Of a stretch of DNA of 64,000 nucleotides, positions 4,393 to 31,920 are shown piece after piece. The number at the start of each line of letters is the position of its first letter. The first letter of the stretch is position 1. The position numbers were made by a program, and so were the translations under genes. The stretch lies in NCBI RefSeq assembly GCF_002795805.1, contig NZ_CP018799.1, positions 1,791,001-1,855,000 of the forward strand, given 5' to 3'. The notes below the pieces were generated by a model that made no database searches, had not been told where the DNA came from, and worked only from the letters and a program-made list of their open reading frames with translations. The stretch comes from Mariprofundus aestuarium (lineage in GTDB: Bacteria > Pseudomonadota > Zetaproteobacteria > Mariprofundales > Mariprofundaceae).

Positions 4393-5805
4393 ATGGTGAA
4401 ATCACTCTCCATAGTAACCAAGATCAATCTTGTCATCCTGCTGGTACTGGCAGTTACGATGTCGTTTATCTTCTACCTAGCTATTGAGGCAGAGCAAGCT
4501 CATGACGAGGAGATGTTCATGATGCAGGCTACAGGACTTTTCCAGCAGATTGAGATCGCCCGCCACTGGAACTCCCGACAGGGCGGCGTTTATGTTTATA
4601 AGAAACCCGGCATGAAACCCAACCCTCACCTCTACAAAACCCGCCCCGCTGCCGGCAAGGCACGAGTCATCGAACCGGAGATTACCGACAGCAAGGGGCG
4701 CAAACTGATCCTGAAGAACCCCGCCTGGATGTCCCGTGAAATTTCCGAGCTCTCCAAAAGCGAACAGAAGGTGATCTACCACCTGACCAGCCTTAACCCG
4801 ATCAATCCGGATAATGCACCGGATGATTTCGAGAGAATGGCGCTGAAATCATTCGAAACTGGTAACAAAGAGGCACACAAATTATACCAGAATGGCGATG
4901 CACCCTTCTTCCGTTACATGGCACCTTTGAAGATCGAAGAGAGCTGCCTGTCCTGTCACGGCTTCCAAGGGTATAAGGTCGGCGATGTTCGTGGCGGCAT
5001 CAGTGTCGAGATCCCAATAGCACAGCATATCGGCCATGCCGATGAGCGGATGCTTCGGATTGCTGCTTATGCCTTAGTAACCTACCTTATTCTTGCCCTG
5101 ACACTAACTCTCACAGTGCGCAGGTTTGTATCGAAACCAATGAAAAAAATGATCGAATTTACCAATGGCCTAGAGATCGAAAATGAAGCGCTGCTCCCCT
5201 CCGAAGGCCAGAGTGATGAGGTCGGCATCCTTGCGCGATCCCTGTCAGAAACAAGAAAGAGAATTCAGCACCAGCAGATGACACTGCGGGAAAAGGCAGA
5301 AGAGCTCGATCTTTCGCGCCGCACCGACCCTTTGACCGGAGCCAATAACCGCCAGCACTTTATTCTGGAGATGCCAAAAATCGTCGCACGTGCCAATCGC
5401 GACAACTCACCGACCAGCATCCTGATGGTCGATATCGACCACTTTAAAGAGGTCAATGACACCTATGGCCACGCCATTGGCGATCGGGTACTGCAGCAGA
5501 TGGTTGAGCATATGATTCAGGAGACCCGTAGTTACGATATGCTCGTACGATATGGTGGCGAAGAGTTTCTGGTGGTCATGCCTAATACGGAGAACCAGCA
5601 TGCGGTTGTGATTGCCGAGCGTATCCGCAAGAGCATGGAGGCTTGCCACTGTGTTACAGCAGGAGATAAAACGGTCCTCTACACAGTCAGTATCGGCGTT
5701 TATACCACGCTGCAGGAGGAGATCGACCAGATGCTGATCAAGGTGGATGATGCAATGTACCGCGCCAAAGAGGGTGGCCGCAACAGGGTTCAGAACAGCG
5801 AGTGA
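4393..5805 (+). CDS. Membrane diguanylate cyclase with Tll0287-like haem-binding sensor domain
   Basis: A 470-residue protein with a transmembrane helix (about 8-28), a periplasmic Tll0287-like (DUF3365) sensor domain, a second helix (about 220-240), a HAMP-like linker and a C-terminal GGDEF domain. The sensor holds ESCLSCHG with a covalent haem-c motif CxxCH at residues 185-189. The cyclase has RYGGEEF near residue 388 and an intact RxxD inhibitory site (RSYD) five residues before it, so it should make c-di-GMP under product feedback. Haem ligation suggests redox or gas sensing; this is inferred from the family. It is convergent with phoR, their 3' ends overlapping by 16 bases. Confidence 0.88.
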   Translation: MVKSLSIVTKINLVILLVLAVTMSFIFYLAIEAEQAHDEEMFMMQATGLFQQIEIARHWNSRQGGVYVYKKPGMKPNPHLYKTRPAAGKARVIEPEITDSKGRKLILKNPAWMSREISELSKSEQKVIYHLTSLNPINPDNAPDDFERMALKSFETGNKEAHKLYQNGDAPFFRYMAPLKIEESCLSCHGFQGYKVGDVRGGISVEIPIAQHIGHADERMLRIAAYALVTYLILALTLTLTVRRFVSKPMKKMIEFTNGLEIENEALLPSEGQSDEVGILARSLSETRKRIQHQQMTLREKAEELDLSRRTDPLTGANNRQHFILEMPKIVARANRDNSPTSILMVDIDHFKEVNDTYGHAIGDRVLQQMVEHMIQETRSYDMLVRYGGEEFLVVMPNTENQHAVVIAERIRKSMEACHCVTAGDKTVLYTVSIGVYTTLQEEIDQMLIKVDDAMYRAKEGGRNRVQNSE

Positions 5806-6976
5806 CTATTCAACTCATCTATCTCAGCTGGCAGTGTAATCCTGACTGAAAGGCCATGTGGAGTAACATTGCTAAGCTCAAGTGTGCCGTCATGCATCTC
5901 CAGCATCTCCTTAACGATCGCCAACCCCAAACCATGGCCTCCGTCTTTCCTTCTCCTGCGTGCCTGGTCAACGCGGTAGAAGCGTTCGGTTACCTTGTGA
6001 ATATCCGCTTCGGGGATGCCTGCCCCCTGATCCTCAACAACAACTGCAGCCGCATCACCGACCATAGACAGAGCAACTCTGATCGTACCCTCTTCAGGTG
6101 AATATCGCAGTGCATTCTCCAGCACATTGGTGAACACCCGCTCAAAATCGTGCTCGGCAATAAGTACAGGTTTCATCTCATCACTCTGGATCAGTTCAAT
6201 CGAAAGAGACTTGGCGAGAAGCCGGGGGCCAGGGCATCCTTCACCTTATGGAAAACAGACAGTGGATCGGAAGTACCGATCTCGTGCCGATTTGTAAATT
6301 CGATCTGATCCAGTGTCAGTAGTGAATCAAGCAGCTGGTTCACATATTTTGCCTCATCGGCAATGATTCTGGATGCCTCCAGCCGGAAGTCGGGGTCGTG
6401 GCCAAAACTCTCAAGACTGCGGGCATAACCGAGCAGTGAGGTCAGCGGCGTTTTCAGGTCATGTTTCAGGTTGGAAAGAAACTGCCGCTGCTGCCTCTCC
6501 TGTCTGTTTCTTTCTGTCACATCCATGCAGAGCAGTAGCGCCTGATCCCTGCCCAGAAAAGCAAGTCTTGGAGCAAGTACGTGTTGCCCCACCTCAATAT
6601 CGGGGAGTTGAATATCACTCTGCTGAAGCTTCAACGCGGTTGAGAATGCTCGATACCAGTCAGGGTCACGGATAAACACCAGCATCGACTGTGGAAGCTC
6701 GGGGCCCACATCCATTCTGAAGAGTTCGCTAGCCCTGCGGTTTGCTGATATCACGCGGCCAAGCTTATCGACACGCATCACAGCCTCACTGACCGATGAG
6801 AGCAATACATCCAGTCGTCGCCCGCGATCTGCAAGAGACTCTTGCAGTCCACCGGATGCTTCGCTCAACCTGGAGAGTTCAGCCCGGCATTCAGTAAGCT
6901 CCTGCCGCATGCGCTGAGCAGATACAATCCAGACCGAGATGATCCCGATAATCAGTAAGATAAATCCGGCAATCAT
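5790..6976 (-). pseudogene. phoR: PhoR-type phosphate sensor histidine kinase, interrupted by a frameshift
   Basis: Sensor kinase partner of PhoB. The N-terminal part (6976 to 6191) has a transmembrane helix at residues 1-18, a PAS-like domain, and the phospho-acceptor box FLSNLKHDLKTPLTSLLGYA. The frame then stops. The catalytic half continues in another frame (IAEHDFERVFTNVLENALRY, VEDQGAGIP, GHGLGLAIVKEM) to 5790. Restoring one C in the C run at 6224-6228 joins both halves as DALAP-RLLAKSLSIELIQ-SDEMKPV, so a single-base deletion is the simplest explanation. Either a sequencing error or a real null that would uncouple PhoB. Its start overlaps phoB by 4 bases (ATGA). Confidence 0.85.
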
Positions 6977-7728
6977 TCAGCGGGAGGAATAAAGCGATAG
7001 CCCATGCTGCGCACAGTCTCGACACATTTCTTGCGGCCAATCTGCTTCATTGCCTTACGCAATCGCTTGACCGTAACATCAACCGTGCGTGCCTCAACAA
7101 AGACGTCCCTTCCCCAGACATGGTCGAGCAGATACTCCCTGCTGCGGGTTTTGCCCGGCTTTTCCATCAGGATTTTGAGCAGCTTGTACTCCATCGGACG
7201 CAACTCAACACGCAAATCACCCTCAAACACAACAGGAGTATCCGGGTCGAGCTGAATTGGATTTTTAACCGCTGTTCCTTTCTCTACGAAACGGTTTCGC
7301 CTGAGCAGTGCCTTGGCCCGGGCCACAAGTTCGGCAGGTTCAAATGGCTTGGCGAGATAGTCGTCCGCCCCCTCGTTCAGTCCATGCACCCGTTCGGATG
7401 GCTGACTGAGTGCAGTGACCATCAGCACAGGCACATTGGCATGTGTCGATGACTTGCGAATTTTGCGCAACACCTTCATGCCGCTTGCGCCGGGCATCAT
7501 GCGATCAAGAATCACCAGAAGCCATTTGCCATCGCGAATGCACTCCAGCGCGCTATCGCCATCTCCACAGCAATAGGTGGAGAAACCGGCAGCCTGCAGA
7601 TGCAGGTTCATCAGCCGTGCGATCGACTCCTCATCCTCAACAATCAGGATGTCAGCGCCGTCTTTGAATTTATTTTTATCAGTCATCAACTCGTGATACT
7701 GAAAGGAGTGCTCACCAACCTCAAGCAT
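6973..7728 (-). CDS. phoB: Phosphate regulon response regulator PhoB (OmpR family)
   Basis: A two-domain regulator: a receiver (ILIVEDEES, phospho-acceptor Asp in VILDRMMPGASG, switch Lys in LAKPFEPAEL) followed by an OmpR/PhoB winged helix (SREYLLDHVWG, RTVDVTVKRLRKAM, VRSMGYRF). It is predicted to activate genes carrying Pho boxes; several lie in this window. The start at 7728 overlaps the upstream cNMP-domain gene's stop as TGATG, suggesting translational coupling. An internal ATG at 7686 (MTDKNKFKDG) is a possible alternative, closer to the usual PhoB length. Gene order is cNMP-domain protein, phoB, phoR. Confidence in the start is lower than in the identity. Confidence 0.9.
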   Translation of the reverse strand: MLEVGEHSFQYHELMTDKNKFKDGADILIVEDEESIARLMNLHLQAAGFSTYCCGDGDSALECIRDGKWLLVILDRMMPGASGMKVLRKIRKSSTHANVPVLMVTALSQPSERVHGLNEGADDYLAKPFEPAELVARAKALLRRNRFVEKGTAVKNPIQLDPDTPVVFEGDLRVELRPMEYKLLKILMEKPGKTRSREYLLDHVWGRDVFVEARTVDVTVKRLRKAMKQIGRKKCVETVRSMGYRFIPPAE

Positions 7729-8308: not shown

Positions 8309-8468
8309 TCACAGCTGGCGAGAGGGCGCACGCATGAATTGTGGCAACCAGCTACTCTCTGCGCTCAATATAAGTTACATAATGTGGACGATCGTTTCAG
8401 AAACGCTAAACTGCCGCCCACTCCGCGAGGGAGAAATAGATGCATGTCCGTGCATGGGAGAGAATATA

Positions 8469-9602
8469 TTGAAAACAACGATTAAATCTATTGCAGCGGC
8501 TGCAATGTTTGCAGCTGCAACCCCGGCATTTGCCGGTGGTGTAACTGTTGCCGAAGAGGGTGAGAGTAAACTGAAGCTGGAAGCACTGATGTTCCTGAAC
8601 ACCTACCACCAGAAGGCTGACACGATTACTGCAGCAGGCACCACTACCACCAAATCCATAGGTATGGCCGTTGACCGCGCCTACTTCACCGCCAAATACT
8701 TCTTCAACGACGACTGGATGATGCGTATTACGCTCGATGCCGGTAACGACCAGAGCCTGGGCGGCAAAAAACAGAACGTATTCCTGAAAGCAGCCTATGT
8801 TGAAGGCAAGCTGCTTGGCGATGCTGCAGTGCTGCGTGTAGGCCAGTCACATACCCCTTGGATCGATTATGAGCAGGGACTGTGGAAACACCGCTATGTC
8901 TCTCAGGTTATGACTGACCGATATAAATTCGACGACTCATTCGATCTTGGCCTTGGCCTGAAAGGCACGCTGGCTGATGGCATGATCAAGTACTTCGTCA
9001 CCGAGACCAATGGCTCCGGTTACGCCGATGCCAAGCGTACTGCACACCTCGACCTTAATGCCCGCATCGGCATCTACCCTGTTGAAGGGCTGACCCTGGA
9101 CTTCCAGTTCCGTGATGGCCGTCGTGCCACGCGTGTGTCTACGGTCTCTCGTGGCATCAAGACCAGTCTGATGCAGGCAATGCTCACCTACGGTACCGAC
9201 GACTTCCGCGTTGGCGGAAACTACGTTGCCAACAAGGATAAAGCAGTGGGCACTACAACAGCCACTATCAGCCATGGCGGTGCAGTTAGCAGTGGTTATG
9301 GCTTCAACACCCTCGTTGCTGGTGATCAAGTGAAGAGCAATGCTTACGGATTGTGGGCATGGGCCAAGCTTCCTGCCAACTTCGGCGTATTTGCCCGTTA
9401 CGAAAACATGAACAACAAGCTTAACGCTGGTGCAGTGAAAGAGAAGATGACCCGTTACATGGGCGGCATCGAGTACACCGAGATCAAGGGCGTGAAGTTT
9501 GCACTCGTGGTTGACACGAACAAGCTGACAAACCGTGCAGGTGTTACCACCGACTCCCGCAAGGATACCCGCTTTGGCCTCTACTCCGAGGTTAAGCTGT
9601 AA
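8469..9602 (+). CDS. Outer-membrane porin, paralog 1 of the phosphate island (TTG start)
   Basis: A 377-residue predicted beta-barrel porin. The TTG at 8469 is chosen because GGGAG sits 8 bases upstream and translation then begins directly with a signal peptide (LKTTIKSIAAAAMFAAATPA, ending AFAGG); the longer open frame has a non-signal leader. The mature protein alternates short amphipathic strands (VDRAYFTAKYFFNDDWMMRI, LRVGQSHTPWIDYEQGLW) and ends RFGLYSEVKL. It is clearly homologous throughout to the porin at 9794. The neighbourhood (phoBR, pst) and the Pho boxes suggest a phosphate channel; this is contextual, since substrate specificity cannot be read from the sequence. Confidence 0.82.
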   Translation: MKTTIKSIAAAAMFAAATPAFAGGVTVAEEGESKLKLEALMFLNTYHQKADTITAAGTTTTKSIGMAVDRAYFTAKYFFNDDWMMRITLDAGNDQSLGGKKQNVFLKAAYVEGKLLGDAAVLRVGQSHTPWIDYEQGLWKHRYVSQVMTDRYKFDDSFDLGLGLKGTLADGMIKYFVTETNGSGYADAKRTAHLDLNARIGIYPVEGLTLDFQFRDGRRATRVSTVSRGIKTSLMQAMLTYGTDDFRVGGNYVANKDKAVGTTTATISHGGAVSSGYGFNTLVAGDQVKSNAYGLWAWAKLPANFGVFARYENMNNKLNAGAVKEKMTRYMGGIEYTEIKGVKFALVVDTNKLTNRAGVTTDSRKDTRFGLYSEVKL

Positions 9603-9793: not shown

Positions 9794-10942
9794 TTGAAAG
9801 CAACAATCAAAACATTTGCTGCAGCTGCAGCAATGACCGCATTCGCAGCACCAGCCATCTCTGGCGGCGTAAATGTATACGACGACGGTGAAAGCAAACT
9901 GAAACTGGAAGCACTCTTTTACCTGAACAGCTATGCTCAGACTGACGACCGTATCACTGCCGGTAACAGCGTTAAAACCAAGACCGCTGGCTTGGCCGTT
10001 GATCGTGCCTACTTCACTGCCAAGTACTACTTCAACAGCGATTGGATGATGCGACTGACTACCGACATCGGCCACGAAAGCACCCTGAGCAAGAAGCAGA
10101 ACGTTTACCTGAAGTATGCATACCTTGAGGGCAAGCTGGCAGGCAAGGCAGCTGTACTGCGTGTAGGCCAGTCTCACACCCCATGGATCGACTATGAGCA
10201 GGGCCTCTGGAAGCATCGTTATGTTGCTAAGGTGATGTCTGACACCTACAAATTCGACACCTCTGCTGACCTCGGCCTTGGCCTGAAAGGCAAAGTTGCT
10301 GACGGCATGGTTGACTACTTCGTTACCGCAACCAATGGCTCTGGTTATGGCAATGGCGCACGTACCGCAGGCGCTGACTACAGTGCACGCCTTGGCTTCC
10401 ACCCAATTGATGGCCTGGATATCGACTTCCAGTACCTCAATGGCCTTCACGGCACCAAGACTTCCGTAACCGGCGCTGGTTCTGCCGGCATCAAGTCCAG
10501 CCTGGCTCAGGCCATGATCTCCTATGGAACCAAAGAGTTTCGCGTAGGTGGCAACTACCTGATCAACAAGGATAAGGCTCAATCTGCTGCTGCATCGTCA
10601 ACTCACGGTGGCAATGCAAGCGCCGCATTCAAAACTGCAGCTATCGGGGACGAAGTGAAGTCTACCGGTATGGCACTGTGGGGCTGGGCGAAACTGTCTG
10701 ACACTCCGTTTGGTGCATTCGGTCGCTTTGAGTCTCTGAAGAACCAGATGTCTACTGCTGGCGTTACCAACCCAACTAAAGAGAAGGTAACCCGTTATGT
10801 TGCAGGTCTGGAATACAGCCCTATCAAGAATATCACCTTCGCTGCTGTTGTTGACGTAACCAAGCTGACCAACCGTGGTGGTGTTACCACTACTACTGAC
10901 AAAGACACCCGCTTCGGCCTCTACTCTGAGGTTAAGCTGTAA
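9794..10942 (+). CDS. Outer-membrane porin, paralog 2, Pho-box controlled (TTG start)
   Basis: A 382-residue predicted beta-barrel porin starting at TTG 9794, with AGGAG 6 bases upstream and a signal peptide ending in AISGG. It aligns end to end with the porin at 8469, sharing VDRAYFTAKY, LRVGQSHTPWIDYEQGLWKH, LGLGLKGK, and the identical C terminus RFGLYSEVKL; main differences are in extracellular-loop-like stretches. Four PhoB repeats directly upstream make it a strong candidate phosphate-starvation porin feeding the adjacent Pst system. Specificity for phosphate or polyphosphate is inferred from context. The protein does not end in the aromatic residue usual for porins. Confidence 0.85.
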   Translation: MKATIKTFAAAAAMTAFAAPAISGGVNVYDDGESKLKLEALFYLNSYAQTDDRITAGNSVKTKTAGLAVDRAYFTAKYYFNSDWMMRLTTDIGHESTLSKKQNVYLKYAYLEGKLAGKAAVLRVGQSHTPWIDYEQGLWKHRYVAKVMSDTYKFDTSADLGLGLKGKVADGMVDYFVTATNGSGYGNGARTAGADYSARLGFHPIDGLDIDFQYLNGLHGTKTSVTGAGSAGIKSSLAQAMISYGTKEFRVGGNYLINKDKAQSAAASSTHGGNASAAFKTAAIGDEVKSTGMALWGWAKLSDTPFGAFGRFESLKNQMSTAGVTNPTKEKVTRYVAGLEYSPIKNITFAAVVDVTKLTNRGGVTTTTDKDTRFGLYSEVKL

Positions 10943-11227: not shown

Positions 11228-12283
11228 ATGAAGAAAATCATCCTGGCAACCACAGCACTGCTGATTGGCGCCAATGCAGCACAGGCTGGCGGCGACCAGA
11301 CTCACATCGTCGGTTCATCCACCGTTTACCCATTCTCCAGCTACGTGGCTGAAGAGCTGGGTGCTACCACCAAGTTCAAGACCCCCGTTGTTGAGTCCAC
11401 CGGTTCCGGCGGCGGCATGAAGCTGTTCTGCGCTGGCAATGGCATGGACACCCCTGATATCACCAACGCTTCACGTCGCATGAAAGAGAAGGAATATGCA
11501 ACTTGCCAGAAGAATGGCGTTAAACACATCACTGAAGTTGTTGTAGGTTACGACGGTATTGCACTGGCTCAGAGCACAGATGCAGCTCCAATGAACCTGA
11601 CCCGTAAGCAGATTCTGCTTGCTGTTGCTGCAGAGGTTCCTAATAAAGAGGGCACTGCCCTGATTGCCAACCCTTACCACTTCTGGAATGAAATCGACTC
11701 CAGTCTGCCGCACCGCAAGATCACCTTCTACGGCCCTCCAACCTCATCCGGTACCCGCGATGCATTTGAAGACCTGACCATGAAGGCTGTTGCCAAGAAG
11801 ATGGATGTATATACCAATCTCTACAAGGCTGATCAGAAAGCGAACAAGAAGTACAAAAAGTATCATGAAGTTCGTCAGGACGGCGTTTATGTTCCATCCG
11901 GTGAAAATGACAACCTGATCGTTCAGAAGTTGACCAAAGACGCTGATGCACTCGGCATCTTCGGTTACAGCTACCTGGCTGAAAATGCTGACCGTATTGC
12001 AGCTGCAACAGTTGCAGGCGTTGCTCCATCTCCTGAAGCAGTTCAGGACGGTTCATACAAGCTTTCACGTAGCCTCTACTTCTACATCAAGAAGTCCCAC
12101 ATCGACAAGGTTCCTGGCATGAAAGAGTACATCAACCTCTTCACCTCTGAGCAGATGATCGGTGATGACGGTGCCTGCACCGAGATCGGCCTGATTGCAC
12201 TGCCGGAAGCAATGCGTGCACAGTACCGTGCGCAGGCAGAAAACCTGACCAATATGAAACCTGAAGATTTGAAAAAGAAATAA
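11228..12283 (+). CDS. pstS: Phosphate ABC transporter substrate-binding protein PstS
   Basis: Periplasmic phosphate-binding protein of 351 residues. A signal peptide (1-20, NAAQA-GG) precedes HIVGSSTVYPFSSYVAEELG, ESTGSGGGMKLFCAG, DITNASRRMK and SSGTRDAFEDL, which carry the phosphate-contacting Ser/Thr/Arg/Asp residues of the PstS family. It starts the pstSCAB-phoU cluster and lies behind three Pho-box pairs. The ribosome-binding site (AGGAGT) is followed by a 13-base spacer, which is slightly long. A terminator-like hairpin after the gene probably makes PstS more abundant than the membrane components. Confidence 0.95.
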   Translation: MKKIILATTALLIGANAAQAGGDQTHIVGSSTVYPFSSYVAEELGATTKFKTPVVESTGSGGGMKLFCAGNGMDTPDITNASRRMKEKEYATCQKNGVKHITEVVVGYDGIALAQSTDAAPMNLTRKQILLAVAAEVPNKEGTALIANPYHFWNEIDSSLPHRKITFYGPPTSSGTRDAFEDLTMKAVAKKMDVYTNLYKADQKANKKYKKYHEVRQDGVYVPSGENDNLIVQKLTKDADALGIFGYSYLAENADRIAAATVAGVAPSPEAVQDGSYKLSRSLYFYIKKSHIDKVPGMKEYINLFTSEQMIGDDGACTEIGLIALPEAMRAQYRAQAENLTNMKPEDLKKK

Positions 12284-12301
12284 GTTCCATCCCAAATGAT
12301 G

Positions 12302-12336
12302 AACTGGCCGGAGAATCTTCGGCCAGTTTTTTCTAT
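12302..12336 (+). terminator. Terminator/attenuator between pstS and pstC
   Basis: AACTGGCCG / CGGCCAGTT hairpin with a 9-base loop followed by TTTTTTC. It sits inside the pst cluster, so partial readthrough would set the ratio of PstS to PstCAB. Confidence 0.85.
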
Positions 12337-12401
12337 TTTACAGATGTGTTATATATGGAGAAAAGTTTGTTCATTCTAGATAGACATACAGCAGGCCAGC
12401 A

Positions 12402-13646
12402 ATGATATATTCTGACCTGTTTTTCTGGCTTTTTGGCGGCTTAATTCCCCTGGGAGTCACCGCATTCATGGTCGCGCGCAGTAAAGCGCTGGGCTCTGAG
12501 AAGGACGGCTCACGCCTGCACTCCCTGCCCGGTTATTACGGCTGGTATGCAGTCATCTGGCTGGCCCTGCCTGCGATGCTCAGCGGCATTGTTTTCAGCT
12601 TCACACACATGTTCGGCCTCTTCTCCATCCCGGCACCTATGCTGCTGGGCGCCATGTTCACCATTGGTGGCGCAGGACTCTGGTATGGACTTCGTCATAT
12701 CAATGTGGACTTCCGGGCTCGTGAAAAGGTAGAGAAGGTCACAACCGGCATGCTCGTCATCGCTGCCAGTATCTCCGTTCTAACCACACTCGGCATTGTT
12801 CTCTCCGTCGTCTTTGAATCGGTGAATTTCTTTCAGGCCATCTCATTCTGGGATTTCATCACCGGCACCAAGTGGGAGCCTGATACTGCCTTCCTAATTG
12901 GCGCTGGCCGCGACACTGCGGGAATGACCCCACCTGCATTCGGCGCGGTGCCGATCTTTGCCGGCACCTTTATGATTACCGCCATTGCCATGATGGTTGC
13001 TGTACCTGTCGGCCTCTTCTCTGCGATCTATATGTCAGAGTACGCATCACACAGCGCCCGTGGCAGGCTCAAGCCGATGCTGGAGATTCTGGCTGGCATC
13101 CCTACCGTGGTTTATGGCTTCTTCGCAGCCATTACCGTCAGCCCGCTGATCGTAAAAGCCGCCCATGCCTTAGGTCTGGAAGCCGATTACACCAATGCAC
13201 TGGCACCGGGTTTAATCATGGGTGTAATGATTATCCCGTTTGTCTCATCGCTCTCCGATGATGTTATCACTGCCGTTCCACAAGGTTTGCGCGATGGTTC
13301 ATTGGCACTCGGCACCACCAAAGCTGAAACCATTCGCCATATTGTACTGCCGGCCGCGCTTCCAGGCATCGTAGCCGCCTTCCTGCTGGCCACGTCCCGT
13401 GCCATTGGTGAAACCATGATTGTGGTGATGGCAGCTGGCCTGCGTCCAAACCTGACTGCCAATCCGCTGGAAGGGATTACCACAGTTACCGTAAAGATCG
13501 TGGAAGCTCTGACCGGTGATCAGGAATTTGACTCCGCCTTTACTCAGTCGGCTTTTGCCCTCGGCTTTGTACTACTGCTGATCACACTGGTTCTGAATAT
13601 TGTCTCAAGCATTGTCGTACGCAAATTCAAGCAGAGGTACGAATAA
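12402..13646 (+). CDS. pstC: Phosphate ABC transporter permease PstC
   Basis: A 414-residue inner-membrane permease. An extended N-terminal region has two or three extra hydrophobic segments (residues about 5-25, 45-68 and 75-95) before the canonical permease core. Features of the family include MVAVPVGLFSAIYMSEYAS, LEILAGIPTVVYGFFA, and the EAA-type loop LPAALPGIVAAFLLATSRAIGETM. With PstA it forms the membrane channel for phosphate delivered by PstS. It is followed by pstA with only a one-base gap. At 414 residues it is longer than the roughly 320-residue E. coli protein; long-form PstC proteins are known in other proteobacteria. Confidence 0.93.
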   Translation: MIYSDLFFWLFGGLIPLGVTAFMVARSKALGSEKDGSRLHSLPGYYGWYAVIWLALPAMLSGIVFSFTHMFGLFSIPAPMLLGAMFTIGGAGLWYGLRHINVDFRAREKVEKVTTGMLVIAASISVLTTLGIVLSVVFESVNFFQAISFWDFITGTKWEPDTAFLIGAGRDTAGMTPPAFGAVPIFAGTFMITAIAMMVAVPVGLFSAIYMSEYASHSARGRLKPMLEILAGIPTVVYGFFAAITVSPLIVKAAHALGLEADYTNALAPGLIMGVMIIPFVSSLSDDVITAVPQGLRDGSLALGTTKAETIRHIVLPAALPGIVAAFLLATSRAIGETMIVVMAAGLRPNLTANPLEGITTVTVKIVEALTGDQEFDSAFTQSAFALGFVLLLITLVLNIVSSIVVRKFKQRYE

Positions 13647-13647
13647 G

Positions 13648-14817
13648 ATGTCCCAGAATAAATTTCAAGCCGATGCCCGCAAACGCAAACGTGACAGGGC
13701 TGACAAACGTTTCAAATTCTACGGTTTTGCTGCCATCACCTTCGCCCTGGCATTCCTTGTCTTCTTTTTCGTAGACATCATCGGCAAGGGTTTGCCTGCC
13801 TTCCAGCAGGCGGAGATCAAGGTCAACGTTCACTACAGTGAAGCGACCATGAACAACTACAACAACGCCGTCGACAGACAATATAAGACACTGGTCAGTA
13901 AGACTTGGCTGCGTCTGGTGCCCAACCAGATGCGCGACAACCCTGAGTTGATGGGGGTGGATCGTGAGGAGTGGGTACTGGCAGAGAATCGTGTTGATCA
14001 GTTCCTCAAAGGCAACGATGGGCACCGCCTGAAAACAAAGTATCAGAAGCTGATCAACCAGATGCAGAAAGATGGGACCGTTCGCCTTGTCTTCAACACC
14101 GGTTTTTTCAGCAAGGGTGACTCAAAACTGCCGGAGAATGCAGGCATTCTCGCTTCAGCAATTGGCTCAATACTGGTGCTACTGCTGACCATGTTATTCG
14201 CTGTACCTATCGGCGTGATGACAGCCATCTATCTGGAGGAGTTTGCCCCGGATAACAAGCTCACCCAGATCATCGAGGTGAATATCAATAACCTGGCAGC
14301 CATCCCATCAATTCTTTACGGCCTGCTAGGGCTGGCAATCTTTATCAATTTCATGGGCGTACCACGATCATCCGCTCTGGTGGGTGGCCTCACCCTGGCC
14401 TTGATGACACTACCGGTGATCATCATTGCCACCCGAGCTGCGTTGCGTGCTGTGCCTGACTCAATCCGCGAAGCTGCATACGGGCTAGGTGCATCCAGCC
14501 TGCAGGTTGTTTGGCATCATGTACTGCCACTGGCAATGCCGGGTATCCTGACCGGCTCGATTATCGGTCTTGCCCAGGCCATGGGCGAAACCGCCCCGCT
14601 GCTGATTGTCGGCATGATGGCCTATATCCCCGAGGCGCCGGGGTCTATCTTTGAAGCAACGACAGTGCTGCCTGCCCAGATCTATACCTGGTCATCGGAA
14701 TCACTGCGCGCTTTTGAAGAGAGAACTGCTGCAGGCATAATGGTGCTGCTGGCTGTGCTGCTGACCCTCAATGCAGTCGCTGTTAAGTTTAGAAATCGTT
14801 CTGAGAACACGTGGTAA
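13648..14817 (+). CDS. pstA: Phosphate ABC transporter permease PstA
   Basis: A 389-residue inner-membrane permease. The start at 13648 directly follows the pstC stop; an alternative start inside pstC would add an implausible leader. A basic N-terminal tail ([13 protein letters not shown]) precedes the first transmembrane segment, then a large hydrophilic loop (residues about 50-150), then the permease core with [29 protein letters not shown], and the EAA loop [23 protein letters not shown]. Family length is usually near 290, so the large soluble insert is notable but matches long-form PstA proteins. Confidence 0.93.
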
Positions 14818-14824
14818 TGACATC

Positions 14825-15598
14825 ATGAATAAGACAACCGTAGAAAATACTATCACCGTCCGGGATCTGAAGCTCTGGTATGGCGACTATGAAGCCCTGC
14901 ACGGCATCGACCTGGACATCCAGAAAGGCAAAGTGACCGCATTTATCGGTCCCTCAGGTTGTGGCAAGTCCACCTTCCTGCGCACCCTCAACCGCATGAA
15001 TGACCGCATTCCGGGATGCCGTGTTGAGGGTGAGATTCTGCTCAATGGCCAGGATATCTATGCCCCATCTGTTGATGTTGTGCAGCTGCGAAGCTACGTC
15101 GGCATGGTTTTCCAGAAACCCAACCCGTTCCCCAAGAGTATTTATGAAAATGTTGCGTATGCCCCGCGCATTCACGGCATGGTCAAAGATGGCCCTGAGA
15201 TGGATGAGCTGGTCGAGTCTGCCCTCAGACGCGCCAGCATCTGGGACGAGGTAAAGGATAAACTGCAGCAGCCGGGCACCGCCCTCTCCGGTGGCCAGCA
15301 GCAGCGTCTCTGCATCGCCCGCACAATTGCTGTGAAACCTGAAGTGATCCTGATGGATGAACCATGTTCTGCGCTAGACCCAATCGCCACAGCCAAGATT
15401 GAAGAGCTGATGGATGAGCTGAAAGAGGAGTACACTATCGTCATTGTAACCCACAATATGCAGCAGGCAGCGCGTGTTTCCGATTACACCGCTTACTTCT
15501 ACCTTGGCGATTTGATGGAGTTCAACGACACCCACACCATTTTCACAGCTCCTGCGAACCAGAAGACTGAAGACTATATTACCGGCCGCTTTGGATAA
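14825..15598 (+). CDS. pstB: Phosphate ABC transporter ATP-binding protein PstB
   Basis: A 257-residue ABC ATPase. ATG 14825 is 7 bases after the pstA stop. Visible motifs are Walker [10 protein letters not shown], the Q-loop VFQKPNPFP, signature LSGGQQQR, Walker B VILMDEP with DPIA, and the switch His in [10 protein letters not shown]. The [12 protein letters not shown] segment after the Q-loop is specific to PstB among ABC ATPases. It powers phosphate import through PstCA and, in the usual model, takes part with PhoU in signalling phosphate status to PhoR. Confidence 0.96.
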
Positions 15599-15607
15599 GG
15601 AATGATT

Positions 15608-16312
15608 ATGAAAACACACACGATTAAACGATTTGAAGATGAAATGAACGAGTTAAAAGAGAAGGTGCTCGCCATGGGTGGCCTGGTTGAGAAGGCCACC
15701 AAGCGCTCCATGAACTCACTGATCAAACATGATACCAAACGCGCCTACAAGGTTATTGAACGTGATCAGGCGATTAATGCTCTGGAGATAGAGATTGATG
15801 AGATGACCCGCACCATACTGGCTCTGCGTCAGCCTGCCGCCAGTGACCTGCGTTTTGTCATGACAACTATCAAGGTGGTGACTGATCTTGAGCGCATGGG
15901 TGACCTGGCCGAAGGTATTGCCGAGCTCATGCTGGAGACTCAGGAGCACCCGTTGATTCATGTATCTTCACTGGAATCCCTTTCCGATCAGGTGTTCACC
16001 CAGACAGCTTTAGCACTCAATGCCTTTGCCAAAGCTGACCTTGATGCAGCCATCGCCTGCCTGCAAAACCATGATAAAGTTAACGGTAAATTCAAATCGA
16101 TGCAGCGAGAATACCTCACCTATATGATGGAGGATGCACGCCAGATCACAGCCGGTCTGATCTCCACCAATATTGCAAGAAACCTGCAACGCATTGGTGA
16201 TCATGCCGTTAATATTGCCGAGATGGTGATCTATATGATTAAAGGCCGCGATGTCCGCCATATTGATCACTCTGAAGCCGCTGCCCTGGTTACCGGAAAC
16301 CAGCAGAAATAA
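15608..16312 (+). CDS. phoU: Phosphate signalling complex protein PhoU
   Basis: A 234-residue all-alpha protein with two PhoU repeats (EMNELKEKVLAMGGLVEKAT in repeat 1; RNLQRIGDHAVNIAEMVIYM in repeat 2) and both metal-ligand motifs (DLERMGDLAEGIAE and RIGDHAVNIAE). It mediates Pst-dependent inhibition of PhoR under phosphate sufficiency. The start at 15608 is preferred: AAGGA lies 7 bases upstream, while the ATG at 15602 is too close to it. It ends the pst operon. Confidence 0.95.
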   Translation: MKTHTIKRFEDEMNELKEKVLAMGGLVEKATKRSMNSLIKHDTKRAYKVIERDQAINALEIEIDEMTRTILALRQPAASDLRFVMTTIKVVTDLERMGDLAEGIAELMLETQEHPLIHVSSLESLSDQVFTQTALALNAFAKADLDAAIACLQNHDKVNGKFKSMQREYLTYMMEDARQITAGLISTNIARNLQRIGDHAVNIAEMVIYMIKGRDVRHIDHSEAAALVTGNQQK

Positions 16313-16479: not shown

Positions 16480-17745
16480 TTAGCTGAATGCGCCTTTGAA
16501 GAAGAAGAAGAACAGAATTGACAGAATAGCACCTGCCGGAAGCGTGATGATCCATGACAGGAAGATCGTCTGGATCACACCCATATTCAAAGCACCAATA
16601 CCACGTGCCAGACCAACACCGATCACCGCCCCCACCAGTGTATGGGTAGTGGAGATCGGCAGACCTGTGCCGGAAGCCACAACAACGGTCGTAGCTGCAG
16701 CAAGTGTTGCGGCAAAGCCGCGACTTGGAGTCAGCTCACTGATACCGGAACCAACTGTTGCAATCACCTTATGTCCGTAAGTCGCCAGACCAAAGACAAT
16801 ACCGCCGCCACCAAGCAGAAGAATCCATACAGGCGTTGCTGATTTAGAGGCAATTTCACCGGCACTACTAACAATGCCGACAACGGCTGCAACCGGACCA
16901 ATAGCATTGGCCACATCGTTGGAGCCGTGGGCAAAGGCCATAGCAATAGCCGTGAAGATCATCAATACACCGAAGATCTTCTCCATATTGGTATAATGGA
17001 ACTTCTTATCCTCTTTCTTGGAGAACTTCAGTCGCTTGATCATGAATGTGCCGATAACCGCAAAAATCACACCAATAAGCGCAGCGTAAATCATATTCTG
17101 GTCAAACGGCAGCTTCACACCGACATGTTTCAGACCTTTGAGCAGGGTCACCATCGCCATGATAAAACCAACCAGGAAGATGTAATAAGGTACATACTTC
17201 TTGGCTTTTTCAAGTGGGTCTTCAGTATCAATAATCAATTTCTGGATACTTCTGAACAGGGCAAAGCCGATTGCACCAGCCATAAGCGGAGAAGTAACCC
17301 AGCTCAGTGCGATGGTACCTACCTTGCCCCACTGCACAGCCTCCATGCCGATACCGACAGCGCCGAAACCGACGATGGCACCGACAATGGAGTGAGTAGT
17401 AGAGACAGGCCAGCCCATGCGGGTAGCAACCAGAAGCCAGATACCAGCAGCCAGCAGGGATGCCAGCATACCGTAAACAAGAAGCTCGGGCGTACTACCC
17501 AGTGATGAGACATCGACAATGCCTTTACGGATGGTTTTGGTTACCTCACCACCTGCAAGAACAGCACCGGCACATTCGAATATGGCAGCAATGATCACTG
17601 CCTGCTTAAAGGTCAGCGCACCTGAGCCGACCGATGTCCCCATGGCGTTGGCGACGTCGTTCGCACCGATACCCCAGGCCATAAACAGGCCGAAAACAAC
17701 GGCCATGCCAATTAATATAGTTGAATTTGCAACAAGAATGTCCAC
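16480..17745 (-). CDS. pit: Inorganic phosphate transporter, PiT family
   Basis: A 421-residue inner-membrane transporter with about ten hydrophobic segments and the duplicated PiT signature: GANDVANAMGTSVGSGALT near the N terminus and GSNDVANAIGPVAAVVG in the second half. The PISTTHTLVGAVIGVG and PVSTTHSIVGAIVGFG segments are the other family hallmark. It probably moves metal phosphate with protons or sodium as the low-affinity route beside Pst. It lies 12 bases after the DUF47 gene in one operon, the usual Pit/accessory pairing. Confidence 0.94.
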   Translation of the reverse strand: MDILVANSTILIGMAVVFGLFMAWGIGANDVANAMGTSVGSGALTFKQAVIIAAIFECAGAVLAGGEVTKTIRKGIVDVSSLGSTPELLVYGMLASLLAAGIWLLVATRMGWPVSTTHSIVGAIVGFGAVGIGMEAVQWGKVGTIALSWVTSPLMAGAIGFALFRSIQKLIIDTEDPLEKAKKYVPYYIFLVGFIMAMVTLLKGLKHVGVKLPFDQNMIYAALIGVIFAVIGTFMIKRLKFSKKEDKKFHYTNMEKIFGVLMIFTAIAMAFAHGSNDVANAIGPVAAVVGIVSSAGEIASKSATPVWILLLGGGGIVFGLATYGHKVIATVGSGISELTPSRGFAATLAAATTVVVASGTGLPISTTHTLVGAVIGVGLARGIGALNMGVIQTIFLSWIITLPAGAILSILFFFFFKGAFS

Positions 17746-17757
17746 GATTATCTCCCC

Positions 17758-18438
17758 TTATCGTGCCAGTAACAGTTCAAGGCGGGCGCCAACGCGTTGA
17801 GCGATATCGGCTACCTCACCTACATTTTGAATCACGCGATAGAGGAACACTGCATCGATCGGATCCAGATTCTTTTCGATGACAAACAGTGCGTTATTGA
17901 TCTGGGTACCAAGCTTATCGGCACCATACTCGATATCATCGAGGTCATTGATCATCTCTTCCACCGTGTTCACTTCACGACCACGGAAACCGACCTCAAC
18001 CAGCTCATCGAGTTCATTGACAATCTTTTTGGCCTGACGGGAAGAGGCGACACTCTGTTTGACCAGCTCAACCAGCAAATCTGCAAGCTCTTCGGGAATA
18101 GCCATCTGACGACCAATCACGTAACCGGCAATCTCCTTGGATTTGTTGGCCAGTCGATCCTGATTTAATACGATATCCAGGATACGTTCGCGTGGCATCG
18201 GCATGAAAAGTGAATTTGGCAGTTGGATACGAAGCGAATGTTTCAGATCATCTGCTTCTACTTCCAGTCTGTGAATCTCCCGCTCCAAAATAGCAGCCTG
18301 CTCGTAATCTTTTGCAATCACAGCCACAAAGAATGGCTCGAGTTTTTTCACAGCTTCATGAGCCTTGCTGATATGTTCCTGCAGCGGTTTGATCGGCGAA
18401 CCGGCAAACATATTTGAAATTGGACTTCTTCTAACCAT
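17758..18438 (-). CDS. DUF47/PhoU-like Pit accessory protein (TIGR00153 family)
   Basis: A 226-residue helical PhoU-like protein of the DUF47 family that usually precedes pit genes and is thought to regulate Pit transport. It shows MFAGSPIKPLQEHISKAHEA, REIHRLEVEADDLKHSLR, LFMPMPRERILDIVLNQDRL and the C-terminal VAQRVGARLELLLAR-type helix (here IAQRVGARLELLLAR). The start at 18438 is chosen because GGGAG lies 5 bases upstream; upstream TTG and GTG codons overlap that site. A Pho-box pair sits about 67 bases upstream, making this operon a likely PhoB target. Confidence 0.9.
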   Translation of the reverse strand: MVRRSPISNMFAGSPIKPLQEHISKAHEAVKKLEPFFVAVIAKDYEQAAILEREIHRLEVEADDLKHSLRIQLPNSLFMPMPRERILDIVLNQDRLANKSKEIAGYVIGRQMAIPEELADLLVELVKQSVASSRQAKKIVNELDELVEVGFRGREVNTVEEMINDLDDIEYGADKLGTQINNALFVIEKNLDPIDAVFLYRVIQNVGEVADIAQRVGARLELLLAR

Positions 18439-18504
18439 ATTCACTCCCAATATTTAGACCCTAAGCGGCCTGTTCATTAAAACGGATACATTATATATGT
18501 CATT

Positions 18505-27982: not shown

Positions 27983-30070
27983 CTACTCCTTTAGCGTACC
28001 CAGCTTTCTCATCAACATCAGCTGGGCACTTTTCGGCTGCGCACGCGTTTGTACTCGCTGGTAAGAGCCGTCCGCTTTCAGTTGCCATGCACCAACATTA
28101 TCCGAAAAATATGGGGTTAGCCCTGATGCAATCAGTTCCTTTTTCAGCACCTCGTCACGCACAGGAAAACAGGTCTCCACGCGTCTGAGAAGATTGCGAC
28201 TCATCCAGTCCGCACTGGCACAAAATAGTTCCGTCTCACCGCCATTATGAAAATAGTAGATACGTGTGTGTTCAAGAAAACGCCCCAATACCGAACGCAC
28301 ACGGATATTCTCGGAAATTCCGGCAATGCCCGGACGCAAACAGCAGATGCCGCGCACAATCAGATCGATTTTTACACCTGATTGGGAAGCGCGATAGAGC
28401 GCCCTGATCACCTCAGGCTCTTCAAGCCCGTTGACCTTGGCGCGAATCCTGGCCTCGCCTCCGGCACGCGCTGTTTCCGCCTCGCGGTCAATACGTTCAA
28501 TCAACCCCTTATGCAAAGTGAACGGTGCCGACAGCATCGCCTTCAGACGCGTAGCTTTACCAAGCCCGGTCAGCTGCTGGAACAGCTTATGCACGTCCTC
28601 ACCCAGTTCCGGATCACAACTGAGCAGGCCAAAGTCGGTGTAAAAACGACTGGTGACGGTGTGGTAGTTACCTGTACCCAGATGAACATAACGGCGCAGT
28701 TTACGACCTTCGCGGCGCACCACCATCAGCATCTTGCAGTGCGTTTTGTAACCAACAACCCCGTACACCACCTGCACGCCGGCAGCTGAGAGCTTGTTTG
28801 CCAGAGCAATATTCTCCTCTTCGTTAAAGCGCGCCATCAGCTCGATAACTGCCACCACCTCCTTGTTGGCACGCGCCGCCCGCACCAGAGCATCCACCAG
28901 CGGAGAATCGGGCACCACCCGGTACATCGTCTGCTTAATCACCAGCACATTAGGATCTGAGGCAGCCTGATTGAGCAGTTCAACCACCGGAGAAAAGCTC
29001 TGGAAAGGGTGGTGCAGCAGCACATCACCCTGCTGAATCATCTCAAACACGCTGGACTCTTCATCGCGCAACTGCGCTGGCACGCCCGCTTCAAATACCG
29101 GGTATTTCAGATCGGGCCTGTCGACCTCATTATAAATGGCTGCAAGTCGATAAAGGTTAACCAGTCCATCCACGCGGTAGAGATCACCCTGCCCCAGTCC
29201 GAATTGATGCAGAAGAAAATCCACCAACTCCTGTGGACAGCGCTGTGACACCTCCAGCCGCACCTCCTTACTGAAGCGACGCTCCAGCAACTCACCGGCA
29301 ACCGCCTGCTTCAGATCTACAAGCTCCTCCTCATCCACTAGCAGGCCACTGTTACGTGTAATACGGAACTGATGACATGCTTTGGCCTCCATGCCGGGAA
29401 AAAAGTCGCCGACATGAGCATGAATGATCGAGGAGAGCAGTACAAAATGATCTCCAGAACCGGCAATCTCTCTGGGCAACCGTATCACGCGGGGCAGTGA
29501 GCGCGGCGCCTGCACGATGGCGTAGTGGGACTCGCGACCAAAGGCATCCTTACCCTCCAGCGAGACAACGAAATTGAGAATCTTGCTCAGCAGGCGTGGA
29601 AATGGATGCGCCGGATCCAAACCGATCGGGGTCAGCAGAGGCAACAGTTCACGGCGGAAAAAGCGGCGAATCCAAACAGCCTGCTCTTCACTCCAGTCAC
29701 TGCGGCGTAGAATCCGGATGCCTTCCTCCTCCAGTGCCGGTAGCAGTGCATCATTGAGCAGTTGATACTGATCCGTCACCAGTGCATCCACACGGCCGCG
29801 CACCTGCGACAGAATCTCACCGGCGGTCAGCCCATCTGCAGCCTTAGAGAGAGACCCCATGGCAAGACGATGTTTTTGGGCGGCTACCCGCACCTCGAAA
29901 AATTCATCCATATTGGTACTGCTGATACAGAGGAATTTCAGACGTTCCAGCAATGGAATACCCAGGTCACAGGCCATCTCAAACACACGCCGGTTGAACT
30001 GCAGTATGCTCAAGTCACGGTTCAGATAGAGACCTTTATCTTCAAGCGGCAGGGCTGGTTGTTCAGTCAA
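27983..30070 (-). CDS. ppk1: Polyphosphate kinase 1
   Basis: A 695-residue enzyme that builds polyphosphate from ATP. Visible features are the N-terminal YLNRDLSILQFNRRVFEMA, ISSTNMDEFFEVRVA, the phospholipase-D-like catalytic regions with the phospho-acceptor His in GYKTHCKMLMV, RYVHLGTGNYH, and the second-domain IDLIVRGICCLRPG. ADWMSRNLLRRVE completes the C-terminal signature. Length is typical. The upstream gap of about 135 bases carries three Pho repeats that point away from ppk1 toward a 55-aa gene, but they could affect both. Convergent with ppx. Confidence 0.96.
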   Translation of the reverse strand: MTEQPALPLEDKGLYLNRDLSILQFNRRVFEMACDLGIPLLERLKFLCISSTNMDEFFEVRVAAQKHRLAMGSLSKAADGLTAGEILSQVRGRVDALVTDQYQLLNDALLPALEEEGIRILRRSDWSEEQAVWIRRFFRRELLPLLTPIGLDPAHPFPRLLSKILNFVVSLEGKDAFGRESHYAIVQAPRSLPRVIRLPREIAGSGDHFVLLSSIIHAHVGDFFPGMEAKACHQFRITRNSGLLVDEEELVDLKQAVAGELLERRFSKEVRLEVSQRCPQELVDFLLHQFGLGQGDLYRVDGLVNLYRLAAIYNEVDRPDLKYPVFEAGVPAQLRDEESSVFEMIQQGDVLLHHPFQSFSPVVELLNQAASDPNVLVIKQTMYRVVPDSPLVDALVRAARANKEVVAVIELMARFNEEENIALANKLSAAGVQVVYGVVGYKTHCKMLMVVRREGRKLRRYVHLGTGNYHTVTSRFYTDFGLLSCDPELGEDVHKLFQQLTGLGKATRLKAMLSAPFTLHKGLIERIDREAETARAGGEARIRAKVNGLEEPEVIRALYRASQSGVKIDLIVRGICCLRPGIAGISENIRVRSVLGRFLEHTRIYYFHNGGETELFCASADWMSRNLLRRVETCFPVRDEVLKKELIASGLTPYFSDNVGAWQLKADGSYQRVQTRAQPKSAQLMLMRKLGTLKE

Positions 30071-30204
30071 AATAACTCCTCGAGCTGTATCCTCTTACAA
30101 TTCATACTGAATATAGCGACAGAGGAGTATAGTAAGATGAAGCAGGAAAAACAGGCCGTCATTGTTTCACAACACAGCCATGCCAGCCATCAAACATCCA
30201 CTCT

Positions 30205-30233
30205 TGTCACAGAAATGTCACTTCCCTGTCACA
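30205..30233 (+). promoter_or_regulatory. Triple Pho repeat upstream of the 55-aa gene
   Basis: TGTCACA (30205), TGTCACT (30216) and TGTCACA (30227) are in strict 11-base register. A TATCAT -10-like hexamer (30254-30259) follows 20 bases downstream and the 55-aa start codon lies at 30288: a compact PhoB-dependent promoter layout. Confidence 0.85.
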
Positions 30234-30287
30234 ACAACCACACAATCCCCTCTTATCATGCCGCTCAAAATCGCAAGGAGGATAACC

Positions 30288-30455
30288 ATGTTCAATGAAG
30301 ACCAGAAGAGACCTAAAGAGGAGTTGGATCTGCCTAAAATGATGAAGGTCATTGCGATGATGAACCCGCACATTGCCCACTCAGAGATCGCCTTTCTCAT
30401 GGGTATTGATACTGATCTTGGATGTGAAAACCGTGCTGTACTGGGTCACGATTAA
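30288..30455 (+). CDS. 55-aa Pho-box-controlled small protein, unknown function
   Basis: I do not recognise this protein. ATG 30288 follows AAGGAGGA by 5 bases, an excellent ribosome-binding site, and lies behind three PhoB half-sites, so it is probably expressed on phosphate starvation. A longer open frame upstream would run through the Pho boxes and is rejected. The product starts MFNEDQKRPKEELDLPKMMK and continues VIAMMNPHIAHSEIAFLMGI, then a short tail with one Cys. It is soluble, mostly helical, with no membrane segment. It sits between ppk1 and xseA; a regulator or partner of polyphosphate metabolism is a guess from position. Confidence 0.65.
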   Translation: MFNEDQKRPKEELDLPKMMKVIAMMNPHIAHSEIAFLMGIDTDLGCENRAVLGHD

Positions 30456-30507: not shown

Positions 30508-31920
30508 GTGACTCCACATTCAGATGACACTGTATTATCCGTTACCGAACTGACCGCCCGTATCAAACAGATGCTGGAGCAGGGCTTTGCCAGGGTAGAA
30601 GTAACTGGCGAGGTATCGAGGCTCACACGCCCCGCTTCCGGGCACCTCTATTTCACCATCAAGGACGCACATGCTGCCATTTCAGCTGTGGTCTGGCGCT
30701 CAGCAGCCCTGCGACTGAAACAGATGCCTGAAGAGGGCGGCGAATTTATCTTTACTGGTCACCTCAGCCTCTACGAGCCGCGCGGCACCTACCAGCTTGT
30801 AGTAACGCGCGTTGAAGCCGCCGGCGCAGGCCGTCTGGCTGCAGAATTCGAGCGCCGAAAACAGGAGTATGCCAAACGCGGCTGGTTCGACCCCAGCCGC
30901 AAGCTGACCCCGCCTCCACTTCCCACCCATATCGGTATTGTCACATCCCCGACCGCAGCCGCATTTGAAGATGTCAAAAAGATACTGGCGACCCGTCCGG
31001 CATGGCTGCAGTTGACCCTCTCCCCCTGCCTCGTGCAGGGAAGCAGCGCCCCGGCAACCATTGCAACGGCCATCAGAAAACTCTCCACGATGGCCTCACC
31101 TCCAGAGCTGATCCTTCTGGTGCGCGGTGGTGGCAGCATTGAAGACCTGTGGTGTTTCAACGATGAGGCCACAGTCAAAGCCATTGTCGATTGCCACATT
31201 CCGATCATCTCCGGGATCGGCCATGAGATTGATACCACGCTGGCCGATTTTGCTGCAGATCATCGCGCCGCCACCCCTTCCAATGCAGCTGAGTTGTGCT
31301 GCCCTTCCAGAGAGGAGCTTCGTGAGCGACTACCGCGACTCACTTCCCTAGCCAGTCTGCTTCGTCAGCGCCTGAACAGATTCCATCGCGAGATTGATTC
31401 GATGTGTAGAAGAGAGGTCTCTGCATGGCAGCGAAGCCTGGATTCTCGCTACCATATCAGCGAACAGACGCGCTCGCGCCTGAACCATGCCGCGCATGCC
31501 AATGTCAGTCGTCTGCGTTCACCACTGCGTTTAATAGAGAAGCGTCTAACCCCCCTGCAACCGGGAGAGCGCCTGCAGCAGCAGCGCTCTGACTGGTCAA
31601 ACAGAGAGATCGCCCTGAAACAGTCTCTGCGCAACACCCTGCAACAGAAAAAGCAGTCACTCGATCTTCACCTGCGGAATCTGAAAAACCAGCAACGTCA
31701 GGTTGAGCTGAAACGTCATCGTTTCGAACTACTTAACAGCAAACTCAATGAGCTTGATCCGACCGGCGTGCTCAAGCGCGGTTACAGCATGAGCTACAGG
31801 CAAGATGGAAGGCTGATCACCTCAGCAGCCGATCTTGCGATAGGAGACAGCATGCGGGTCCATTTCCATGATGGAACTGCGCAAACCGAGGTCAAATCTC
31901 TAGAGAGGAAAAACCCATGA
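30508..31920 (+). CDS. xseA: Exodeoxyribonuclease VII large subunit
   Basis: A 470-residue large subunit of the single-strand nuclease ExoVII. The N-terminal OB-fold has VTELTARIKQMLEQGFARVEV and SGHLYFTIKDAHAAISAVVW. The catalytic region shows HIGIVTSPTAAAFEDVKKIL, LLVRGGGSIEDLWCFNDE and ISGIGHEIDTTLADFAADHR. A long coiled-coil follows (residues about 290-410) before TGVLKRGYSMSY. The GTG at 30508 gives the correct N terminus; no good ribosome-binding site is seen. xseB is not in the window. Its stop overlaps the next start as ATGA. Confidence 0.93.
   Translation: MTPHSDDTVLSVTELTARIKQMLEQGFARVEVTGEVSRLTRPASGHLYFTIKDAHAAISAVVWRSAALRLKQMPEEGGEFIFTGHLSLYEPRGTYQLVVTRVEAAGAGRLAAEFERRKQEYAKRGWFDPSRKLTPPPLPTHIGIVTSPTAAAFEDVKKILATRPAWLQLTLSPCLVQGSSAPATIATAIRKLSTMASPPELILLVRGGGSIEDLWCFNDEATVKAIVDCHIPIISGIGHEIDTTLADFAADHRAATPSNAAELCCPSREELRERLPRLTSLASLLRQRLNRFHREIDSMCRREVSAWQRSLDSRYHISEQTRSRLNHAAHANVSRLRSPLRLIEKRLTPLQPGERLQQQRSDWSNREIALKQSLRNTLQQKKQSLDLHLRNLKNQQRQVELKRHRFELLNSKLNELDPTGVLKRGYSMSYRQDGRLITSAADLAIGDSMRVHFHDGTAQTEVKSLERKNP

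Follow-up and report, generated by a model that had tools for sequence, protein, structure and literature searches.

A 55-codon frame between ppk1 and xseA of Mariprofundus aestuarium is a real gene and belongs to a previously unnamed family of small acidic proteins, confined, as far as searched, to the Zetaproteobacteria (Mariprofundus and its relatives) and strongly supported by its promoter sequences as being under Pho control. An earlier note, made from the letters of the window (the whole 64,000-nt stretch of DNA analyzed here), had proposed a new Pho-box-driven small protein at this place, and homology, purifying selection and a recurring phased array support the proposal at the sequence level. 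Very probably, the small gene contributes a new regulatory component to the phosphate-starvation response. Bacterial small proteins are under-annotated, and to our knowledge there are few, outside model species, whose environmental trigger is clear. In the present case, a class of marine iron-oxidizing bacteria retains an orphan family that is linked to the phosphate switch; the common promoter points to the condition in which the function may be sought, and the family profile allows such genes to be annotated.

The small gene and its neighbors

The three TGTCAC repeats in 11-base phase, the -10-like hexamer, the Shine-Dalgarno site and the 55-codon frame described in the earlier note were all found where it had placed them. 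The following features were distinguished at the locus:

27983..30070, minus strand: ppk1, polyphosphate kinase (NCBIfam TIGR03705), the divergent neighbor
30137..30199, plus strand: 21-codon remnant (MKQEKQAVIVSQHSHASHQTS), the 5' end of a receiver-like gene
30205..30232, plus strand: Pho-box array of three exact TGTCAC units (30205, 30216 and 30227) in 11-bp phase
30254..30259, plus strand: -10 element TATCAT, 27 nt from the start of the last TGTCAC repeat
30275..30282, plus strand: Shine-Dalgarno site AAGGAGGA
30288..30455, plus strand: the small gene, 55 aa from ATG 30288 (MFNEDQKRPKEELDLPKMMKVIAMMNPHIAHSEIAFLMGIDTDLGCENRAVLGHD), with homologues, a low pN/pS and a predicted helical hairpin
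30508..31920, plus strand: xseA, exonuclease VII large subunit (NCBIfam TIGR00237), the downstream neighbor

The longest mechanically called frame at this place starts at TTG 30162, comprises 97 aa and spans the Pho array. Since relatives, such as those of genomes G004 and G009, carry an in-frame stop just 5' of the ATG, ATG 30288 is the likely start. In G005, G008 and G009 (loci L127, L134 and L135), the receiver-like gene is longer and open; there it occupies the space between ppk1 and the small gene, and TGTCA/TGACA sites of its own precede it.

About 135 bp separate the array from the start of ppk1 on the opposite strand, so that the array might be thought to serve ppk1, with the small frame as a mere passenger; moreover, TGTCA/TGACA sites just upstream of ppk1 in G005 and G008 suggest that ppk1 itself may be a Pho gene. 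We consider this explanation very unlikely, given that the repeats and the -10 element of the window locus face the small gene, that the small frame is selected as a protein (see below), that the small gene retains its own array in G005, G008 and G009, where the receiver-like gene separates it from ppk1, and that the array is also retained by paralogues far from ppk1, similarly spaced from the ATG of each. The Pho array belongs to the small gene, and ppk1 may share it.

Pho arrays of the window and of the genome

The window also contains a pst/phoB cluster, in which the following genes were recognized:

6191-7728: phoB-like and phoR-like genes together
6973-7728: PhoB-like regulator (best match TIGR02154, 239.7 bits, below the cut-off of 296.2)
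8334-9602 and 9794-10942, plus strand: two porin-like paralogues with phased TGTCA/TGACA sites upstream
11228-16312: pstS, pstC, pstB and phoU
16480-18450: DUF47-PiT pair

The labels "porin" and "PiT" are our reading of the sequences, and neither porin-like protein had a match in Pfam or NCBIfam with an E-value of 0.001 or below. The phoR-like histidine kinase gene is apparently split (6191-6976 and about 5780-6240, both on the minus strand): the first frame breaks off behind the HisKA domain, and the stretch VLENALRYSPEEG...GHGLGLAIVKEM, which is ATPase-like, continues in another frame. The gene may really be split, or the break may come from a frameshift or an assembly error.

Single TGTCAC hexamers are no commoner in the window than expected by chance (38 vs. 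33), and the information is therefore carried by the phasing. The exact pattern TGTCAY-N5-TGTCAY-N5-TGTCAY occurs at two loci only in the 2,537,610-bp genome, upstream of the small gene and of the pst-cluster porin whose frame starts at 9794 and which is preceded by a four-unit TGTCAY array, while the reversed control pattern has no match in the whole 2.54-Mb genome. The pstS gene, both porin genes and the DUF47-PiT pair of the window are all preceded by the same TGTCAY/TGACA sites (TGTCA/TGACA) in 11-bp phase; thus, the style of Pho box seen at the undoubted phosphate genes of this genome is also that of the small gene's array. Unlike the small gene, these genes encode transport proteins or the partners of such proteins. 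Pho boxes can replace the -35 element of a promoter, as established for PhoB of Escherichia coli. Membership of a Pho regulon is recognized by phased TGTCAY direct repeats that stand upstream of the -10 element in place of the -35, which were found at the small gene, and by a phoB gene with like arrays at the pst genes, both of which are present in the genome.

The promoter across the family

Of the 62 family members, 47 have, in the 150 nt upstream, at least two TGWCA (TGTCA/TGACA) sites that keep an 11-bp phase, a count made with an earlier start for the G058 member, whose correction leaves the picture unchanged, vs. 17 of the 309 control genes, several of which are neighbors sharing arrays or are Pho genes themselves. 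Spacings of 11 bp (57 cases), 22 bp (32) and 33 bp (10) prevail among the sites, with all others occurring at most 5 times each. Measured from where the last exact unit begins, TANNNT hexamers are most frequent at offsets of 15-16 and 26-27 nt; the latter offset is that of the window gene and of four other genomes of its clade. Two such -10 registers, one helical turn apart, would arise if the final unit of some arrays were degenerate. Nearly all homologues carry an AGGAGG-like Shine-Dalgarno site. The remaining 15 members, including the paralogue of the window genome (G000b), have no exact phased pair; the weaker ones, G000b among them, have one exact site, in some cases with near-matches in phase, and the sole site of G041 is weak, as it depends on reading TGTCAC at the edge of the region.

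The earlier note had drawn its case for a phosphate-starvation protein from the position beside ppk1. This position is true of one orthologous clade but does not define the family, since members located elsewhere keep the array. On the evidence of these upstream regions, the hallmark of the family is the phased Pho promoter and not the adjacency to ppk1.

Distribution and phylogeny of the family

When the 55 residues were used for the homologue search beside ppk1 that the earlier note had called for, relatives of 37-66% identity turned up in the same genus, and many of them also lie between ppk1 and xseA and carry the same array. A first profile gathered about 60 members from 8 genera, and a fuller one gave matches in 48 of 78 Zetaproteobacteria genomes (9 of 18 genera), with up to five copies per genome. 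The note's gene is real, but what it described as one gene is a member of a lineage-wide family, often with several copies in one genome.

The 320 genomes sampled from the phylum outside the Zetaproteobacteria yielded no homologue, and all 48 matching genomes among the 398 sampled from the phylum belong to the window's own family or order. A DNA-pattern search of 84,980 species for close relatives of the single protein found none; a DNA scan of the same number of species with the alignment of the W-S-E-R-N group found 18 loci, whose titles refer to Mariprofundus (ferrooxydans PV-1, erugo and others), Mariprofundaceae or Zetaproteobacteria, except for one that reads only "uncultured proteobacterium." No paper on this family in Mariprofundus was found in the literature searched.

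In a family tree built from a short alignment, in which the window gene's own copy sits on a long branch, the clade of the window gene (11 genes beside ppk1 and the G018 gene) has 100/99 support. The orthologues of the window gene form this one clade and lie nearly all between ppk1 and xseA, and the other family members occupy many different intergenic places, usually alone, with the Pho array kept. The window genome carries a second copy (G000b, or G000:C1) starting at about 50636. Two genomes, G019 and G007, have a tandem pair whose rear member (around 821-982 of locus L184 and around 850-1043 of locus L185) is the more diverged and is preceded by TGTCA/TGACA sites of its own. The family is not essential in the genus, since G011, a genome of the same genus that is 99% complete, has no recognizable member.

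Selection and protein features

The earlier note would have given up the gene at a synonymous/nonsynonymous ratio near 1. Over 22 pairs of matched close copies, which share lineages and are thus not independent, the pooled pN/pS is 0.16, and every pair lies below 0.35; no separate rate could be obtained for the copy in the window, given its divergence from the nearest relative. By this measure, purifying selection acts on the frame throughout the family. The locus is a short, intergenic and apparently strongly controlled transcription unit, as would suit a small RNA with an incidental frame. Such an RNA is scarcely credible, because the amino-acid motif persists in 9 genera, synonymous change greatly exceeds non-synonymous change, and the homologues almost always have a Shine-Dalgarno sequence.

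The members are 47-65 aa long. Most share the core W-[IV]-S-x-R-N-x-H-[IV]-P-x-[SD]-[DE]-L-[AE]-[FY]-[LM], which in the clade of the window gene reads NPHIxxS[DE]IAFLM, and most end in an Asp/Glu-rich tail of variable length and sequence. The family is acidic, with a median net charge of -9 (K+R 5.7% vs. D+E 21.7%). AlphaFold2 models the window protein (mean pLDDT 69) with helices at residues 15-25 and 31-37, a confident core and a disordered tail, and a relative with a like arrangement and a longer first helix; both models are of middling confidence (mean pLDDT 69-71) and name no partner. The product is thus predicted to be a small acidic two-helix hairpin. Neither a signal peptide nor a membrane segment was evident on inspection of the sequences, nor is there an evident enzyme-like motif.

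Searches of Pfam, NCBIfam, PHROGs and the sequences of the PDB gave no credible match to the family, and those with Foldseek gave structural matches at chance level only. Several likenesses were discarded: the structural one to RpnA-S (Z up to 4.2) is not meaningful for a helical hairpin, the similarity of "EIAFLLG" to an AraC-type helix-turn-helix was not borne out, with no AraC family among the Pfam matches at E up to 1, and a recurrent frame of about 880 aa in many genomes gave weak, non-significant matches (E 0.03 or worse).

Two short predicted helices joined by a turn could form a minimal helix-turn-helix peptide that binds DNA or RNA and tunes Pho promoters or mRNAs, the more so as some small DUF1127 proteins bind RNA (PMC12501420). 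This is unlikely for a family so strongly acidic (median net charge -9), and the Pfam helix-turn-helix families match single members only, at chance-level E-values.

Comparison with known small proteins

Small PhoB-controlled proteins are a known kind of thing, and it is the family itself that is new to the libraries searched. In phosphate-starved E. coli, the small protein YtfK (DUF1107, PF06526) binds to SpoT and switches on the stringent response; PhoB induces its gene, which carries two Pho boxes (PMC8600398). The window protein resembles YtfK in being small and encoded by a gene with Pho boxes; the PF06526 profile finds nothing in the window genome, while a control search recovers YtfK in E. 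coli, and the family members give no PF06526 match at E up to 1.

Small DUF1127 proteins (PF06568; YjiS and the SDPs of Agrobacterium) bind PhoR and restrain phosphate uptake (PMC12501420). They are likewise very small, with two predicted helices and several paralogues in some genomes, but are arginine-rich and basic, whereas the family described here is acidic. Kinship with DUF1127, suggested by a likeness of the helix-LSD-helix-G type, was rejected after profile comparison (hhalign probability 0.2%). Family members gave no PF06568 match at E up to 1 (motif L..LSDR.L.DIG.SR), and a search of 15 Zetaproteobacteria genomes for DUF1127 detected it in none.

Proposed role

The promoter of the small gene has no usual -35 element; a PhoB-binding array in 11-bp phase would stand in its place, upstream of the -10. 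When phosphate is exhausted, phosphorylated PhoB would bind this array and switch the small gene strongly on. Both the binding and the strong induction in phosphate starvation are highly likely from the arrangement of the promoter.

The cytoplasmic hairpin would then bind a partner protein and alter its activity during starvation. Among the possible functions, partner binding is the most likely because the hairpin is small, soluble and apparently not an enzyme, and carries polar residues that are strongly conserved; by analogy with YtfK acting on SpoT or DUF1127 proteins acting on PhoR, we give a partner-binding regulator an even chance. The hosts are iron oxidizers that precipitate iron oxides, which bind phosphate. 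In this setting, and with an Asp/Glu-rich tail in most members, the product might instead be an acidic peptide that spares phosphate or handles metals and is not a regulator; we regard this as improbable, as it is the helical core that is conserved, while the tail varies in length and sequence. Taken as a whole, the reading that we favor, and hold to be reasonably probable, is that of a PhoB-induced cytoplasmic regulator which binds a partner and is unrelated to YtfK or DUF1127.

The likeliest partners would be PhoR/PhoB or the enzymes of ppGpp and polyphosphate metabolism. More tentatively, and with the balance somewhat against it, this lineage-specific family of acidic hairpins, expanded into paralogues of which most retain the Pho switch, may be the phosphate-starvation effector or feedback arm of the Zetaproteobacteria, setting PhoR/PhoB output or redirecting polyphosphate/ppGpp metabolism through a mode of partner binding unrelated to YtfK, DUF1127 and PhoU. 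Co-occurrence of the family with pstC or phoU is uninformative, since both genes are nearly universal in Zetaproteobacteria. PhoU was not found in four genomes of the same genus (G014, G018, G020 and G021), in which pstC is present and three of which are at least 90% complete. All four keep the small gene, which makes PhoU slightly less likely as an obligatory partner.
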